Positions 54,515-63,668 of a stretch of 64,000 nucleotides of DNA are shown here, piece after piece. Position 1 is the first letter of the stretch. Each line of letters starts with the position of its first letter. Location: positions 558,001 through 622,000 of the forward strand of contig NZ_CP006681.1 in the NCBI RefSeq assembly GCF_000565175.1, given 5' to 3'. The DNA is from Spiroplasma culicicola AES-1. Its GTDB lineage: Bacteria > Bacillota_I > Bacilli_A > Mycoplasmatales > Mycoplasmataceae. The position numbers were made by a program, and so were the translations under genes. The notes under the pieces were generated by a model that saw only the letters and a program-made list of their open reading frames with translations, searched no databases and was not told the origin of the DNA.

Positions 54515-55420
54515 ATGAAACAAAATTTTTATTTAGGTAGTCATGTTGGTATGAATGCTAAAGGTCAATATTTATTAGGAAGTGCCCAAGAAGCTATTAA
54601 TAACGGGGCCAATACTTTAATGTTTTTTACAGGGGCACCTCAAAATACAATTAGAACTGCAACTGAAAAACTAAATATTGAAGCTTTTCAACAATTATTG
54701 GTTGAAAATGAAATTGATATTACCAAAGTAATTTGTCATGGACCATACACTATTAACTTAGCAAATACTATTAAACCTGATACTTTTGAATTAGGTGTTA
54801 GATTATTAAAAGAAGAATTAATCCGTCTTGAAGCTATTGGAGTACACACTGTAGTTTTACATCCAGGAGCAGCCGTTGGAGCAGAAAGAAGTAAAGCTTT
54901 AGAAAGTGTTGCAAATGGGTTAAACCAAGTTTATAGTCAATTGCCAAACACTCCAGTAAAAGTTGCTCTTGAAACAATGAGCGGCAAGGGGACTGAAGTT
55001 TGTATTACTTTTGAAGAAATTAAATATGTTTTAGACCGTGTTGAAAGAACAGACATGGTTGGAGTTTGTTTTGATACTTGTCATATGCATGATGCAGGAT
55101 ATGATGTAAAAAATAATTTTGATAAAGTAGTTGAAGAATTTGACCAAATTGTAGGGCTAGATAAATTACTTGCAATTCATTTGAATGATTCTAAAAATCC
55201 TATCAATGCTCATAAAGATCGTCATCAAAATATTGGCTATGGTCACATTGGTTTTACAGCACTTGCAAGTGTTGTTCACAATCCTTTATTTAAAGAAATT
55301 CCAATTGTTTTAGAAACACCTTGAATTGATGATAAAACTAGTCCTTATAAAGCAGAAATTGAAATGTTAAAAGCAAATCAATTTAAAAATAACTTTGGTT
55401 ATGAAATCATTGAAAAATAA
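54515..55420 (+). CDS. nfo: Endonuclease IV (AP endonuclease)
   Basis: 301 residues. NFYLGSHVGMNAKGQYLLGSAQEAINNGANTLMFF, VICHGPYTINLANT, VVLHPGAAVGAER, ALETMSGKGTEV, GVCFDTCHMHDAGYD, LLAIHLNDSKNPINAHKDRHQNIGYGHIG and IVLETP supply the His/Glu/Asp trinuclear zinc ligands. It cuts the backbone at abasic sites; with Tag it forms a base-excision path. The T16 tract with hairpin follows as terminator or promoter. Confidence 0.95.
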
Positions 55421-55444
55421 TTTTAAATAAAATCAAAAAAACGA

Positions 55445-55472
55445 TTGCGTTTTTTTTTTTTTTTTCTAAAAT
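55445..55472 (+). promoter_or_regulatory. Promoter-like site with T16 homopolymer spacer, copy A
   Basis: TTGCGT (55445-55450), then 16 nt mostly of the T16 run (55450-55465), then TAAAAT (55467-55472). Spacing is close to optimal. Length change by slippage would alter promoter strength. The overlapping hairpin means it could also be a terminator. Confidence 0.6.
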
Positions 55473-55492
55473 CAACATTAGAAAATATGCAA

Positions 55493-55562
55493 ATAACTTG
55501 TATAAATCAACATAATGGGTTGATGTCTCTACCATAGCACCGATGCTATGACTATAGGTTAT
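55493..55562 (+). promoter_or_regulatory. Purine-family riboswitch aptamer, copy A
   Basis: P1 ATAACTT/AGGTTAT; J1/2 GTATAA; short P2 TCAAC/GTTGA with loop ATAATGG; J2/3 TGTCTCTACC; P3 ATAGC/GCTAT with loop ACCGAT; J3/1 GACTAT. The loop GG/CC kissing pairs are possible. The C of GACTAT matches the specificity base of guanine-type aptamers. U48 of the family is C here. No clear downstream terminator or anti-SD pairing was found in this copy. Confidence 0.85.
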
Positions 55563-55645
55563 ATTCACAAAAATTAATAATTTTAAATACATCGTTATTT
55601 GTTATTTTCACTTTATTAAAGAGAGAAAGGTAATGGTGTTTTTTT

Positions 55646-56437
55646 ATGAAAAAAATATTAGCAATGTTAAGTGCTTTGTCACTAACTGCAACTCCTATAA
55701 CAGCTGTTGTTGCATGTGGAGATAATGATCCTACAACATCAAGAACAAGCTATGATGTTGTTGATGATATTAAAGATATGATAGTTGAAAAAATTAGTTT
55801 AGATACAGAAAAGATATATGAGATTCAAACTGAAGTGTATAATCCACTAAAGGATTTATTAGAAGACAAAGATATACTTGCAATTGATGGGTTACAAGAT
55901 GTAAATACAAGTATTAATGGTTTAACCCCAGAAAATGAATATAGTATTGTTATTAAAAGTTTTACAACTTCATCTGGTGGAGATGATTTTGCAACAAATG
56001 CAAATTATAATTTATGATCAATTGCTATTCAATATTGATACGCACAAAAAGATGAAAATGGTAATTTAAGTTTTAATAGTCGTTACTTTAGTAATTATGA
56101 TTTAGCTTTTAAAGCTGCAAAACAGCAATTAACTGTTACTTATAATGGTCAAATAATTGAACAAAATGGTGCAATTGAATTTGATGGAAATTCATTTGAT
56201 ATTAAATTAACAAAAGGAAAAAATAGAGAAAATATGGACTCTAATGTGAAAGTTGAGGGAATTGAAAATTACTTTACTGTAACTCAAAAACCAGAAGGAG
56301 GAAATTATCCTACTGGAAATACATTAACTTTTACTCCAAAAGAAATAAGTGAATTGACAGAAGACACTAAAGTTGTCATTAATGCACCTTCATTTATTCC
56401 ATTTACATTTACTATTAAAACTAACTCAATAAAATAA
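55646..56437 (+). CDS. Lipoprotein behind riboswitch leader
   Basis: 263 residues with lipobox VVAC (Cys24). No recognised domain; the mature part is mixed beta (LTVTYNGQIIEQNGAIEFDG and TGNTLTFTPKEISELTEDT). Three TGA Trp codons. The ribosome site GAGAAAGG (ends 55630) is 15 nt from ATG 55646, which is far. A better-spaced ATG at 55633 is out of frame, and T7 lies between them. It may be a purine- or nucleic-acid-related surface protein by virtue of the leader, which is an inference. Confidence 0.8.
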
Positions 56438-56447
56438 TAATGAATTA

Positions 56448-56484
56448 TTAAAAAATCTCCCATAAATACTGGGAGATTTTTTAA
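56448..56484 (+). terminator. Terminator, 15-bp stem
   Basis: TTAAAAAATCTCCCA pairs with TGGGAGATTTTTTAA, 7-nt loop. Confidence 0.9.
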
Positions 56485-56508
56485 TTTAAAACTTTTCTCG
56501 AAAAACAA

Positions 56509-56536
56509 TTGCGTTTTTTTTTTTTTTTTCTAAAAT
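56509..56536 (+). promoter_or_regulatory. Promoter-like site with T16 homopolymer spacer, copy B
   Basis: TTGCGT (56509-56514), 16-nt gap filled by T16 (56514-56529), TAAAAT (56531-56536). Identical arrangement and run length to copy A. Confidence 0.6.
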
Positions 56537-56556
56537 ATACATTAGAAAATAAGCAA

Positions 56557-56626
56557 ATAACTTGTATAAGTCAACATAAAGGGTTGATGTCTCTACCATA
56601 GCACCGATGCTATGACTATAGGTTAT
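56557..56626 (+). promoter_or_regulatory. Purine-family riboswitch aptamer, copy B
   Basis: Same P1-J1/2-P2-J2/3-P3-J3/1 layout as copy A, differing at two positions (GTATAAG for GTATAAA, loop ATAAAGG for ATAATGG). Here TGACTATA (56613-56620, J3/1 and P1) is exactly complementary to TATAGTCA (56661-56668) downstream, which could form an alternative pairing in the absence of ligand. Confidence 0.85.
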
Positions 56627-56724
56627 AAATCTTTTTTATCGTATAAAAATTTCAAAATAATATAGTCAGACTAAAACATTGTTATTTGTTATATTTTCGC
56701 AAAAGTAATAAGTGGAGGAAATTT

Positions 56725-58503
56725 ATGAAAAAATTACTTACTTTACTGGCTGCGAGTGCTAGTATAGTTTCTGCGAGTGCAACAGTTGTTGCTTGTGGAA
56801 ATAAAGCTCCAACTAACGTTGTATTTATGTTTGATGCTTCAGTTGGAACAAGTTCAGCAATTACAAAACAATATCAAATTTTAGTAGATAAATATAATGA
56901 ACAAAACCCAGATAATCCTGTAGAAGTTGAAATTGAATTTGCAGCTGCAGGTGCAATTCAAAATGCAATTTTATCAGGAGAAGTATTACCTGATCTTTAT
57001 GTAACTTATCCAGATAATGTTACAAGATACTTAACAACTGCAGAAGAAGAAGTTGTTAAAATGGACGATTACTTTGATACAGAAACATTTGAGCCAATGA
57101 TTGACTCTTTCATGGATGAAGGAAAAATTGGAGATGGACAATATGTTTTACCAATGGCAAAATCATTTGATGTAACAAATGTTAACTTAAGAATGTTAAA
57201 AGAACTTTGTGAAATTGTTTTAGGAACAGAATCAACTACTGGACAATTTTGACAAAAAGATGGATTTCATGAGGAATACACAATTGAATCATCTAATTTA
57301 TTTATTGATACAACTGTAGTAGAACCAGATGAAAATTTGAAAACCTTAATGACAAATATTGCTACAGTAAATAATGCTAATGATTTAAGAAAGATTCTAT
57401 TAAAAGATTCAAATAATGTCTTACTTGCAAAATTAATTTATGAATTAAATGATAAAGTTGACAGAAATGTATTAAGAGATACAGATAAAGTTTATGGTAT
57501 AGGATTAGATGATATGCCAAATAAAGTTTATAGTCAATATGCAGAAAGCATTGAAAAAAGTAGAATTATAACTTCAGCACAAAATAAGGAATTTTTCTAT
57601 AACTATTATGATGATCAATTCTATATAAATGATGACACAGGTATGGAAGGTATTGACTCAGCTTTTAAAATGTTACAAGATTTAAAAGATATTAAAGAAC
57701 CAGGTCAATCACTTTCAGGTAATATAGATGAATCAAAGCAAAATGAATTAATTTACACAATTGATCCATCAATGAGTGGAACTAAAAAATATTCAAGTGA
57801 CTTCTTTGCAGCTGGAACAATGTTAATGGCTTCTGGTTCAACTGCGGGATCATTCTATTATCAAAGCAAAACTGGTGTTAAAGATGAAGTTTTTGTTAAA
57901 ATGAATGATATCTTAACTATTGGAACTCCAACAAAAGATGGAGAACAATACATAATGCAACAAGGTCCTGGAATTGCAGCATTTAAATCTACAAATGATG
58001 AAAAAACAGAAGTTGCAAAAGACTTTGTAAGTTTCATGATGGAAGCACAAAATATGGCAGAATTTGCAATTTATACAGGTTATATGCCTTCAAATGCAAA
58101 AACATATTCAGACACAGATTACATGGAATGATTAAAAGGTACTAAAAATCCTGGTTCTTCTTCAAGAGATAATGCCATTTTATTACAAGTTGCAGAATTA
58201 ATTGAAGATAAAACAAATTCACACTTCGTTACAATTGAAGGTTCACCAATGGGAACTGGAGTTAGAGATAAAGTATTTAAAAACGTAGTTCAAAACCAAA
58301 TGTTTAATGATGCAAAAGCAGTATTTGTAAATTCTGATAAAAAAGTTGGAAATAAAAATTCTACTGATACAACTTTCTGAAAAACTGCACAACCAGCAAT
58401 TCACAATATTTACACTGACTTTATTGCTACTGGAAAAGAAAAATATCAATCTGATACTAAAAATAAAAGCGCAATTCTTAATGAAAGAAAAAAATCTTTA
58501 TAA
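56725..58503 (+). CDS. Extracellular solute-binding lipoprotein of an ABC importer
   Basis: 592 residues. I start at ATG 56725 with GGAGG; the longer frame from 56686 adds a poor leader. Lipobox VVAC (Cys24). Family 1 binding-protein pattern: [31 protein letters not shown] start, [31 protein letters not shown] and [24 protein letters not shown], similar to UgpB/MalE proteins. TGA Trp at 57251, 58129 and 58378. Stop overlaps the start of the next gene. The cargo is unknown; the purine riboswitch suggests nucleosides or nucleic-acid fragments. Confidence 0.85.
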
Positions 58504-59438
58504 TGCAATTATTAAAACAAATTGAAAATGAAATTAAAGATTTTGACACAATTATAATCCATAGACATGTTAATCCAGATGGTGATGCTTATGGAAGTCA
58601 ATTGGGTTTAAAATGATTAATTGAACAAAACTTTAAAGATAAAAGATGTTATGCAGTAGGTGAATCAATTGAATGACTGAACTATGTTGGGTCATTTGAT
58701 GTTATCGAAGATGATAACATCTTTCATAATTCTCTAGTAATTGTGACAGATTGTGCAAATGTAGAAAGAATATCAGATCAAAGATTTACATTAGCAAAAA
58801 AGGTTATTAAAATAGATCACCATCCCAATATTACAGAATATGGTGATTTAATGTGAGTTGATACAAGTTATACTTCAGCCAGTGAAATGGTTGGTTATTT
58901 AGCAATTCAATTAGGATGAGAAATTCCTCAAAAAGCTGCAAGAGCAATTTTTAATGGAATTGTAACTGATTCAGGCAGATTTATGTATCGTGGTGTTAGT
59001 CCAAGAACATTTGATGTAGCAAGTAAACTATTGTCAACTGGTTTTGACTTGGATGAACTATATAGAAATTTAAATACAAAGAAATTAAGTGATTTAGAAT
59101 TTACAAATTATATCTTTAACAACTTTAAATTATCAAGTAATGGTTTAGCTTCAATTGTAGTACCAATTTCAGAAATGGATAAACATGGTTTATCTGCAGA
59201 AGTTATGAACAAATATGCAAATACACTTGCTGGTTTTGAAGAAATTAAAATGTGAATTACTTTTAGTGAAAGAACTGATGGTCAATATCGTGTAGAGTTT
59301 AGAAGTTCAAAAACAATTGTTAATGAATTAGCAGTTAAATACGGTGGGGGAGGTCATGCCCTTGCATCTGGTGCAATTGCACCAGATTTAGAAACAGTAA
59401 ATAAAATTATAGAAGATGCCGATCAACTTTTAAAATAA
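58503..59438 (+). CDS. nrnA: NrnA-type DHH oligoribonuclease / pAp phosphatase
   Basis: 311 residues. [20 protein letters not shown] and VIVTDCAN supply the metal-binding Asp/His; IDHHPN is the DHH motif; [14 protein letters not shown] and [12 protein letters not shown] follow; the DHHA1 domain ends with [14 protein letters not shown]. It degrades 2-5-mer RNA and dephosphorylates pAp. The gene overlaps the preceding one by 1 nt and is followed after 3 nt by the ABC ATPase, so it is part of the importer operon. TGA Trp codons. Confidence 0.92.
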
Positions 59439-59441
59439 GTT

Positions 59442-61322
59442 ATGAGTATTAAATTAAGAAACGTAACAATTGATTATGGAAATTTTATTGCTGTTGACAA
59501 TTTAAGTATTGATATTAAATCAGGCGAATTAGTTTCAATACTTGGACCTTCTGGTTGTGGAAAATCTACAACTTTAAATGCCATTGCTGGCTTAATTCAA
59601 ATTACAAGTGGTCAAATCCTATTTGACGGAATTGATGTTACTCACAAAAGTACACAAAAAAGAAATATAGGTTTGGTTTTTCAAAACTATGCACTATATC
59701 CACATTTAAATGTTTTTCAAAACATTGCATTTCCTTTATATCAAAGCAATGATTTTAGAAGAAGTGTTAAAATTAAAAATAACGATTTAAAACTTAATCG
59801 TTTAATCTTTGATAATAGTTTAAATAATAAAAATATTTTTAATCAATTATCAAAACAAAATATTTCCTTTAATAATTACTTATCAGAAATTGAAGATCAA
59901 TTATCTGATGTCGAAAATATATTTATAACAAAAGCAAACACTTATATCACTGATTTTATTAAACAAATTTATATAAGTGATAAATATGAAGTTTTTAAAA
60001 ATAAACAGACTTCATATTTATTTGATAAAATGAAAGTTATCTTTTGAGAACAATACTTAGAAGTATTTAATCAAATAAAAACTTTATTAACACAAAAAAA
60101 TGAAGTATTAGTTTCAAGTGAAATTAAACATAAAGAGAATATTATTTCAATTATGAAAAAAATACTTTCGAATTTAGAATATAAAATTATTTTAAAAATT
60201 AAAAATAACATTAAGTTATTTAGTGATTCTTTAAAACTACATATCTCTTCAATTCGTAAAGAAATAAAATTAGCACAAAAAAATGCTAAGAAAATGAATG
60301 AAGAATTTAGTTTTGAATTAGATGACGAACAATTTAATTCAAAAATGCAAGAGTTTGAAATTAACTCACAAAAAATTATGGATGAAATAAATAATGAAAT
60401 TGAAAAAACAATTTCAAAAAATATTTCTATAAAAATTGATGATTTAATAAAACAATTTCAAAATATTTATTCTCAACCAATTAAAAGTGAACAAACTTTT
60501 AATGAAGAAGAAACATTTGAATTTAAAAAGGCTCATCAATTAACAAGTTTTAAAAAAGAATTAAGAGCAGCTGTTATGGAAGTTGCAACTAAAGTTGAAA
60601 TTCAAGATCAACTTCATAAAAAACCTTCAGAATTATCTGGAGGACAACAACAACGTGTTGCAATTGCTCGTTCTGTTGTTAAGAAACCAAAAATATTATT
60701 ACTTGATGAACCATTGAGTAACTTAGATGCAAAACTTAGAGTTTCAACTCGTGAATGAATTAAAAGATTCCAACAAGAAACAAAAATTACAACAGTTTTT
60801 GTAACTCACGATCAAGAAGAGGCTTTAAGTATCTCTGATAAAATTTTTGTTATGTCAAAAGGTTTATTACAACAAGGGGATGTACCAATAAATATTTATG
60901 AAAAACCAAACAACATTTTTGTTGCAAACTTTATTGGAACACCAACTATGAATTTCTTAAAGGCAACTACTTCAAGTGATGGATCAATTAGTTTTGGAAA
61001 TACAATTCTGACTAAAAAGTCTTCTCATAAAAATAAGGAAATTGTTATAGGAATTCGTCCAGAGCATTTAAAAATTGCTCAAGATAATTTAAATAATAAA
61101 TTTTTATCAAAAGACTTAATGTCTGGTAAGGTAGTTAACTTTGAACTACTTGGTAAATCAAATTTTGTTAAATTAGATTTTGATAATTCAGAACTTGGAA
61201 TTATTTATGATTCACATATTAAAAAAGAAATAGATTATAATGAAGAAATTAAATTTAATATCTTAGAAAATAATTTATTTATTTTTGATACTGAATCACA
61301 TACTTTATTGGAAGTTATTTAA
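59442..61322 (+). CDS. ugpC: UgpC/MalK-type ABC ATPase with a roughly 260-residue insertion
   Basis: 626 residues. Walker [14 protein letters not shown]-loop [21 protein letters not shown] (about residue 85), signature [14 protein letters not shown] (starts residue 398), Walker [13 protein letters not shown], switch VTHDQEEAL, and a C-terminal TOBE-like regulatory domain ([10 protein letters not shown]). In usual family members Q-loop and signature are about 50 residues apart. The extra residues here are Lys/Glu/Asn-rich and largely helical ([20 protein letters not shown]). Mycoplasma orthologues also carry long insertions. The stop overlaps the permease start. Confidence 0.9.
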
Positions 61323-62308
61323 TGAGAATTCAAGAAAGTAAAAATTTTGAAATACGTAATGATATTTCAAAATCACAAGTTACAAAAAAGAAAAAAACAA
61401 AATCTATTAACATGGAGCGAACAAAATTTGATTTTCTATACCAAATGATTTGAATCACACCAGCGTTAGCATTTTTATTTATATTTTCATATTATTCAAT
61501 CTTTATAGTCTTTAGAAATGGATTTAACTCTGCTTCAAGACCAATTTTAAATTTTGAATTTTCATTTATAAATTTTAAAAATGTTGCAAATGATGCTTCA
61601 TTTCAAATTGCATTGAGAAATTCATTGCTGTATTCAGTTGTTGTTATTCCAATTTCATTAACATTTTCTATGACTACAGCAAAACTATTATCAAATGTAT
61701 TAAATAAAAAATTATTTTCATTTTTACAATCATTATTCTTTTTACCATATGTAACATCTGCAATGGCAATTTCAATGTCTTTTGCTTTTATCTTCTCACC
61801 AGATAATTATGGTTTAATAAATCAAATTTTACTTGCTTTGGGATTTGATAAAGTTGATTGAACTTCAAAGAGTAATGGAATTATTTTGGTAATGATCTAT
61901 GGAGTTTGAAGATCATTACCATTTGAAATAATTATGTTCACTGCAACTTTTTTAAGAATTGATAAAAGATATTATCATGCAGCTGCAGTTGATGGAGTTC
62001 CAAAATGAAAACAATTTTGAAAAATATCAATCCCAAGAGCAATGCCAATGATTGTTTATATGATAACAACTGGAATCATTAGTTCATTTAAAGTATTTCC
62101 ATTAGGATTATTTGGTTCATATGAAGGTGCAGCACAAGCAAATGCACAAACAGTTGTGTTTTATATTTTTGATAAAGTAAATGCATCTTCAACTTCACCA
62201 TCGTATGGAAAAGGTGGAGCCGCTTCAATTATCTTAATGACAATCATATTAGCAATAACTATAGTTAATAAATTTATTACAAATCATCTTTCAAAGAAAT
62301 ATAGGTAG
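61322..62308 (+). CDS. ugpA: ABC importer permease (UgpA-like)
   Basis: 328 residues with a charged N-terminal tail, then about six membrane helices. The EAA-loop region YYHAAAVDGVPKWKQFWKISIPRAMP (conserved as EAA-xDGA----F--I-LP) is clear. The periplasmic-side loop FGSYEGAAQANAQTVVFYIF and a final helix follow. Several TGA Trp codons. It pairs with the 62316 permease; named by similarity of layout only. Confidence 0.85.
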
Positions 62309-62315
62309 TTAAATT

Positions 62316-63668
62316 ATGAATAAAATTAAATCTAATAGTAATTTTGCAAAATTACATTCACAATATTTACAACAACAAGAAAGTTTGAAAGATGACAAAC
62401 TTGCTTTAACAAATGTTAAAGCTGAATTTGAAAACAATGTAATAAAATTAAATGATAGTAATGATTTTTATACTTTTAAAGAAATTAATCATGCTCGAAA
62501 AATTAAAGTAAAAAATATTAAGTCACAAATTAAAGCTTCAAAAGATATTGAACAAAAATATCTTTTATCAAATCAGATATTTAATCTTAATGATCAAGCA
62601 ATTAACTTTACTAATAAAATAATTTTTAACAGTTATATCTTATTTTTCATTTCAATTTATTTTTGATTCATCAAAAAAGGAAATAAAAAATATTTAAACT
62701 TTGTAAATTATAAATACAATCGAAAATTGAATAAACAAATTTTATTTACAAGCACAATGGCTGGTGAAAAATTTGTACAAAAATTCTTTAATAAATTATG
62801 ACAAGGAACATTCTTATTTGTAATGGCAATTATTATTATTTTTCCATTCTACTGAATGTTAATCACTTCACTTAGAGGTTCTGATGAATTTGATCCAATG
62901 AATCCAATGTCATTCTTTCCAAAGACATGATCTTTTGAAGCTTATCGAAAATTATTTGAATATATAAATGATGATTCATCAAAATTTAAAATAACTTTGA
63001 TTAGATTCTTTATAAACTCAATCATAATTAGTTTAATAACAACAATTTTACAATTAACAGTTTCTGTTATTGCTGGATTTGGTTTAGCAAACTGAAAAAC
63101 TAAACCTCAAGGAATTATTTTAATAATTATGTTATCAACAGTTATGATTCCAGGAGAAGCATTATTAATTGGACAATACATTTTTATGGTGCAATTGGGT
63201 TGAAAAAATACCATTCTAGCTTTAGTCGTACCATTTATTTCAAATGTCTTTACCATCTATTTAATGTCAAGTGCTTTTTCACAAGTTGGGGGTAGTGTTA
63301 AACATGCTGCCAAAGTTGATGGTCTTTCAACTTGAAAATACTTTTGAAAAGTTGCTTTACCTTCAATTAAATCAACAATTGTTACATCATTTGTAATTTC
63401 ATTAATTTCATCATGAAATGCAGTCTTGTGACCAACAATGGTTTTAAGTAATGGTTCAGATTGAGTAACATTGCCAATGCTCTTGTGAGATTTAATGAAA
63501 GCTAGTGGGGGAGAACCTGGTACTATCTTGGAAGATTTTGCACGTGATCCTCAAAACTTAAAAATGGCTGGAGCAATTTTATCCATCTTGCCAATGTTAA
63601 TAATGTTCTTATTCTGTAATAAACTAATAATTCGTGGAATTTCACGAGATAAAGGAGATAAGGGATAG
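62316..63668 (+). CDS. ugpE: ABC importer permease (UgpE-like)
   Basis: 450 residues, longer than usual because of an about 150-residue N-terminal part with a coiled-coil segment and one extra membrane helix (IIFNSYILFFISIYFWF). The core begins at FLFVMAIIIIFPFYWMLITSLRG, followed by ANWKTKPQGIILII, the EAA region HAAKVDGLSTWKYFWKVALPSIKS, and a C-terminal WPTMVLSNGSDWVTLPMLLWD. Seven nucleotides after the first permease. TGA Trp at many positions. Confidence 0.85.

Follow-up and report, generated by a model that had tools for sequence, protein, structure and literature searches.

Poly-T promoter spacers ahead of probable guanine-type riboswitches in Spiroplasma culicicola: candidate slippage-tuned contingency promoters

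In Spiroplasma culicicola AES-1, two copies of a promoter-like block, in which a run of 16 thymines fills the space between a -35-like and a -10-like hexamer, lie ahead of purine riboswitches and lipoprotein genes, as the original prediction of duplicated promoters with a riboswitch downstream had described. On balance, we favour the reading that this T16 run separates the -35 and -10 elements of a slippage-tuned contingency promoter of the sigma-70 type, placed ahead of a guanine-type riboswitch, a view that draws on sequence comparison within the genome and among its relatives. The window, that is, the whole stretch of DNA analysed, comprises 64,000 nucleotides (G000:C1:558001-622000) of a genome of 1,175,131 bp.

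The duplicated promoter and riboswitch block

The features of the two copies, designated A and B, are as follows.
55445-55450, forward strand: -35-like hexamer TTGCGT, copy A (sequence)
55450-55465, forward strand: T16 homopolymer, copy A (sequence)
55467-55472, forward strand: -10-like hexamer TAAAAT, copy A (sequence; TAAAAT also at the orthologous promoters of two relatives, G006 and G015)
55496-55559, forward strand: purine riboswitch aptamer, copy A (Rfam 2dG-I match; pocket bases guanine-type)
55646-56437, forward strand: lipoprotein of no known family, 263 aa (NF038029 LP_plasma above cut-off; no Pfam match)
56509-56514, forward strand: -35-like hexamer TTGCGT, copy B (sequence)
56514-56529, forward strand: T16 homopolymer, copy B (sequence)
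56531-56536, forward strand: -10-like hexamer TAAAAT, copy B (sequence)
56560-56623, forward strand: purine riboswitch aptamer, copy B (Rfam 2dG-I match)
56725-58503, forward strand: ABC solute-binding lipoprotein SBP_bac_8 (family match; VVAC lipobox)
58503-59438, forward strand: DHH/DHHA1 phosphoesterase in the operon of 56725-58503 (family match)
59442-61322, forward strand: MalK-like ABC ATPase (family match)
61322-62308, forward strand: ABC permease (family match)
62316-63668, forward strand: ABC permease (family match)

Both copies read identically as TTGCG-T16-C-TAAAAT, with a single C (at 55466 in copy A and at 56530 in copy B) between the T run and TAAAAT, and a simple repeat therefore lies within the promoter spacer in each. 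The predicted distance of 16 nt between TTGCGT and TAAAAT was confirmed in both copies, as was the equal length of the two T runs; the gap itself, which had been described as the T16 run, consists of T15 plus C, the first T of the run being the last base of TTGCGT. Equal length was nevertheless dropped as evidence, since T16 is the commonest length class in the genome (25 of 54 tracts) and the copies represent a single duplicated block of promoter and riboswitch, approximately 120 bp long, which extends from the -35 element through the purine aptamer. Outside this block, A and B align poorly, apart from one more conserved patch, CAT(C/T)GTTATTTGTTAT, further downstream. The -35 hexamer agrees with TTGACA at 3 of 6 positions, and a consensus promoter scan misses both sites because this element is reduced to TTG.

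An alternative that we regard as very improbable is that T16 serves the upstream gene (nfo in the case of copy A) as the U-tract of an intrinsic terminator. A hairpin, AAAAAACG-ATTG-CGTTTTTT, does lie upstream of T16 in copy A (55435-55456) and had been put forward as the nfo terminator, but its predicted stability is low (-5.8 kcal/mol, z -1.7), and its counterpart in copy B is weaker still (-3.3 kcal/mol, z -0.75). The hairpin arm has diverged between the copies, whereas the TTGCG-T16-C-TAAAAT block has not, and most of the other tracts in the genome lack such a hairpin yet have TTG and TANNNT. At copy B, furthermore, termination is already provided for by a strong hairpin that lies 25-60 nt upstream:
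56447-56485, no strand assigned: strong hairpin terminator between the copy A gene and the copy B promoter (-17.1 kcal/mol, z -5.5)
The terminator reading is accordingly rejected for copy B, which has its own terminator, and is unlikely for copy A, where the hairpin is weak.

A candidate surface lipoprotein is placed downstream in both copies, recognized by NF038029 in copy A and, in copy B, by the VVAC lipobox of a solute-binding protein. The DHH/DHHA1 phosphoesterase gene lies between the genes for the binding protein and the ATPase of the riboswitch-controlled ABC operon, a placement that suggests nucleotide or oligonucleotide uptake by this operon. A search of 55400-58600 for tandem coding repeats of the kind found in M. 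hyorhinis Vlp yielded a single weak 9-nt array.

Riboswitch ligand and leader RNA

The best Rfam family for both aptamers is 2dG-I (RF01510), with scores of 58.5 and 57.9 bits against a gathering cut-off of 51. They depart from its consensus in the position after P1, where U replaces C, and in having CUACC instead of cGCC. In an alignment to xpt, whose numbering we take as the reference, the residues corresponding to U22, U51, and C74 are all kept, and the pocket changes away from U22 and U51 that characterize 2'-dG-I were not found in these aptamers. U22, U51, and C74 are the ligand contacts of guanine-I riboswitches (PMC9295807). The three-stem purine aptamer is common to guanine-I and 2'-dG-I riboswitches (PMC9295807) and to the present pair, which, unlike guanine-I riboswitches, score best as Rfam 2dG-I. 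The ligand is probably guanine, despite the Rfam name, and 2'-dG is disfavoured by the pocket bases. RF01510 matches in this genus that exceed the 2dG-I cut-off carry a guanine-type pocket, and the Rfam name probably misstates their ligand.

A structure that involves the leader was predicted by RNA folding:
55481-55502, pairing with a 3' arm at about 55597-55616, forward strand: leader plus 5' strand of P1 (anti-P1 helix), copy A
In this structure, GAAAAUA-GCAAAUAAC, comprising the leader and the 5' strand of P1, can pair with GUUAUUUGUUAUUUUC located 3' of the aptamer; in copy B, the corresponding segments are 56545-56566 and about 56674-56700. The anti-P1 helix is predicted in A, in B, and in the orthologous G006 and G015 operons, with energies of -15.2 to -18.9 kcal/mol that were matched by none of 200 shuffles in each of the four leaders, and compensatory changes in G006 and G015 preserve the same pairing with different bases. 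The helix starts about 9 nt 3' of TAAAAT, and transcripts would therefore start at or before approximately 55481. The placement of TAAAAT and of the start site in the original prediction thus receives independent backing from a conserved leader RNA structure, which makes it very probable that TAAAAT is the true -10 element. The conserved helix is likely the expression platform of both riboswitches. In copy A, ligand binding would allow P1 to form, and the freed arm could then pair over the ribosome-binding region; this alternative pairing implies that the ligand likely represses expression.

In G006 and G015, the orthologous promoters show a TAAAAT-like -10 at the equivalent site and carry no T tract, indicating that the tract arose in the present lineage. 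Among 30 RF01510 loci, only the locus in this window has a T run longer than 8 nt within 100 nt upstream; poly-T promoters were found neither at 28 of these 30 loci nor at two to three further riboswitches in this genome. A general link between poly-T and RF01510 riboswitches is ruled out, as the other loci compared have no tract.

Long homopolymers across the genome

Counted on both strands of the whole genome, A/T runs of at least 10, at least 11, and at least 15 nt number 54 in each case, and no run of 10-14 nt was found; four T9 runs were seen in a partial scan from which some sites were lost. The tract lengths (n = 54) are 15 (3 tracts), 16 (25), 17 (20), 18 (3), 19 (2), and 20 nt (1), and such long runs exceed chance. 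TTG adjoins 30 of the 54 tracts in the T sense, and exact placement between TTG and TANNNT holds for 31 (22 in the T sense, 9 in the A sense), whereas the same flanks surround 7 (T) and 2 (A) of 132 intergenic runs of 7-10 nt (Fisher p 1e-8 and 3e-4, values that are descriptive, as the motif classes were chosen after the tracts had been seen; the tracts are also longer than the runs used as controls). Around runs of 5-6 nt, the counts are 28/408 (T) and 10/408 (A), giving an overall control range of 1.5-7%. A whole-genome pattern search for spacer tracts returned 21 matches versus 2 in a reversed control, and the coding/intergenic statistics cover about 260 kb around the tracts together with the window. 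Spacer length across the 31 tract promoters ranges from 13 to 19. Copies A and B are two of these 31 spacer tracts, and the notion of two special promoters was rejected.

Lipoproteins account for at least 11 of the 28 assigned downstream genes, compared with 6 of 54 window genes that have a lipobox pattern (p 0.004, likewise descriptive); the other downstream genes encode PTS permeases, an ABC-2 type transporter, and several unannotated membrane proteins. Surface proteins, the targets originally proposed, are therefore represented by lipoproteins, but PTS and ABC uptake genes are targets as well. At three places (G000:C1:722516/722548, 731603/731635, and 1086410/1086435), two tandem T16-19 tracts no more than 15 nt apart precede the same gene. 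Beyond this genome, an excess of runs of 15 nt or more over runs of 10-14 nt is found in many Mycoplasmatales, though it is not universal in the order; in G018, G001, G002, and G019, T16-17 is directly followed by A16-17, forming long junctions that are self-complementary and do not serve as promoter spacers.

One-T differences in tract length are seen among close promoter copies, namely between 697378 (T16) and 737555 (T17), between 397298 (T16) and 763683 (T17), and between 674321 (T16) and 687452 (T17). Among such T16/T17 paralogues, the downstream flanks are 91% identical for the first pair and 74% identical for another. Between G004 and G010, three of nine orthologous tracts (flank identity 93-98%) differ by exactly one T and six are equal, in a comparison of one genome per species that is limited to sites with a tract in both genomes, so that losses go unseen. 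A search for MutS domain I gave no match in any of 30 relatives, this genome included, whereas 11 of 14 control genomes were positive. The one-T differences, the absence of MutS, and the enrichment in spacers support slippage-tuned promoters.

Under this favoured reading, TTGCGT-T15C-TAAAAT would start transcription near 55479 in copy A, driving the riboswitch leader and the lipoprotein gene, and near 56543 in copy B, driving the riboswitch leader and the ABC-uptake operon. In a MutS-less cell, slipped-strand mispairing would add single Ts to the runs or remove them, at a rate that we infer, and each such change would shift the -35/-10 spacing by one base and could raise or lower promoter strength. 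The resulting change in expression would be heritable, reversible, and presumably adaptive, and the riboswitch would then act on any transcript that is produced.

Several observations speak against slippage-tuned promoters, namely the six of nine orthologous tracts of equal length (very fast slippage should have produced more drift), the equal length of A and B, a spacing that ranges from 13 to 19 across the 31 promoters, and a -35 element reduced to TTG. The first two also favour an explanation that we consider improbable, in which rigid poly(dA:dT) of fixed length is retained as a non-switching structural spacer because it favours promoter function or serves as a protein-binding site. Such a constitutive spacer is at odds with a hexamer spacing that varies from 13 to 19, with the G006 and G015 orthologous operons, which work without a tract, and with close copies that differ by one T.

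A mutational attractor is a more serious alternative, although as the full explanation we hold it to be rather unlikely. Without MutS, A/T runs that pass about 9 nt would slip up to an equilibrium of 16-17 nt, their location in promoters would reflect intergenic tolerance and a workable 16-17 nt spacer, and switching would be a by-product. This is consistent with the gap at 10-14 nt, with the sharp peak at 16-17 nt both inside and outside promoters, with the same lengths across the genus (including the T16A16 junctions that are not spacers), and with the excess of runs of 15 nt or more in many Mycoplasmatales. The 23 tracts lacking promoter-like flanks measure 15-18 nt, the same lengths as the 31 with flanks, and promoter spacing alone therefore does not dictate length. 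However, mutation alone does not predict the 8-10-fold excess of promoter flanks at long tracts, and several MutS-less genera of the order have few or no runs of 15 nt or more (e.g., G044 and G050). The attractor is thus a serious rival or a partner of slippage-tuned promoters, in that a slippage equilibrium may determine tract length and selection may account for the many tracts found in spacers.

Relation to known systems and implications

In M. hyorhinis vlp (Citti and Wise 1995, as reviewed in PMC10502178), ON/OFF switching of surface lipoproteins has been demonstrated for a homopolymeric promoter tract. The originally proposed likeness to vlp holds in principle and for the homopolymer in the promoter region of lipoprotein genes; the details differ. 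The vlp tract is poly(A) in a clustered gene family with coding repeats, whereas here it is mainly poly(T) at some 30 dispersed loci; and switching, demonstrated for vlp, is here proposed from sequence, with a riboswitch downstream and no coding repeats in either gene. In M. capricolum vmc, a dinucleotide repeat reportedly occupies the promoter spacer of lipoprotein genes. The same arrangement is described for M. mycoides vmm (PMC10502178). Both systems, which belong to the same order, resemble the present one in having a repeat in the promoter spacer of lipoprotein genes and differ in that the repeat is a dinucleotide rather than a homopolymer. No report of poly-T promoters in Spiroplasma was found in the open-access literature, in which older mycoplasma work is thinly covered.

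More tentatively, about 30 promoters with poly-T/poly-A spacers of one length class could form a genome-wide stochastic regulon that diversifies the lipoprotein and nutrient-uptake surface of this insect-associated Spiroplasma, its length class held by a slippage equilibrium common to many MutS-less Mycoplasmatales, and layered over guanine riboswitches. The gap at 10-14 nt and the peak at 16-17 nt offer a simple, testable system for studying what fixes homopolymer length in cells that lack mismatch repair. If the proposed reading is true, phase-variable promoters would extend beyond vertebrate-pathogen mycoplasmas that evade antibodies, a mosquito-associated spiroplasma-type bacterium would apply phase variation to dozens of uptake and surface genes, and random and nutrient-sensed regulation would be combined at those genes that are also under riboswitch control.
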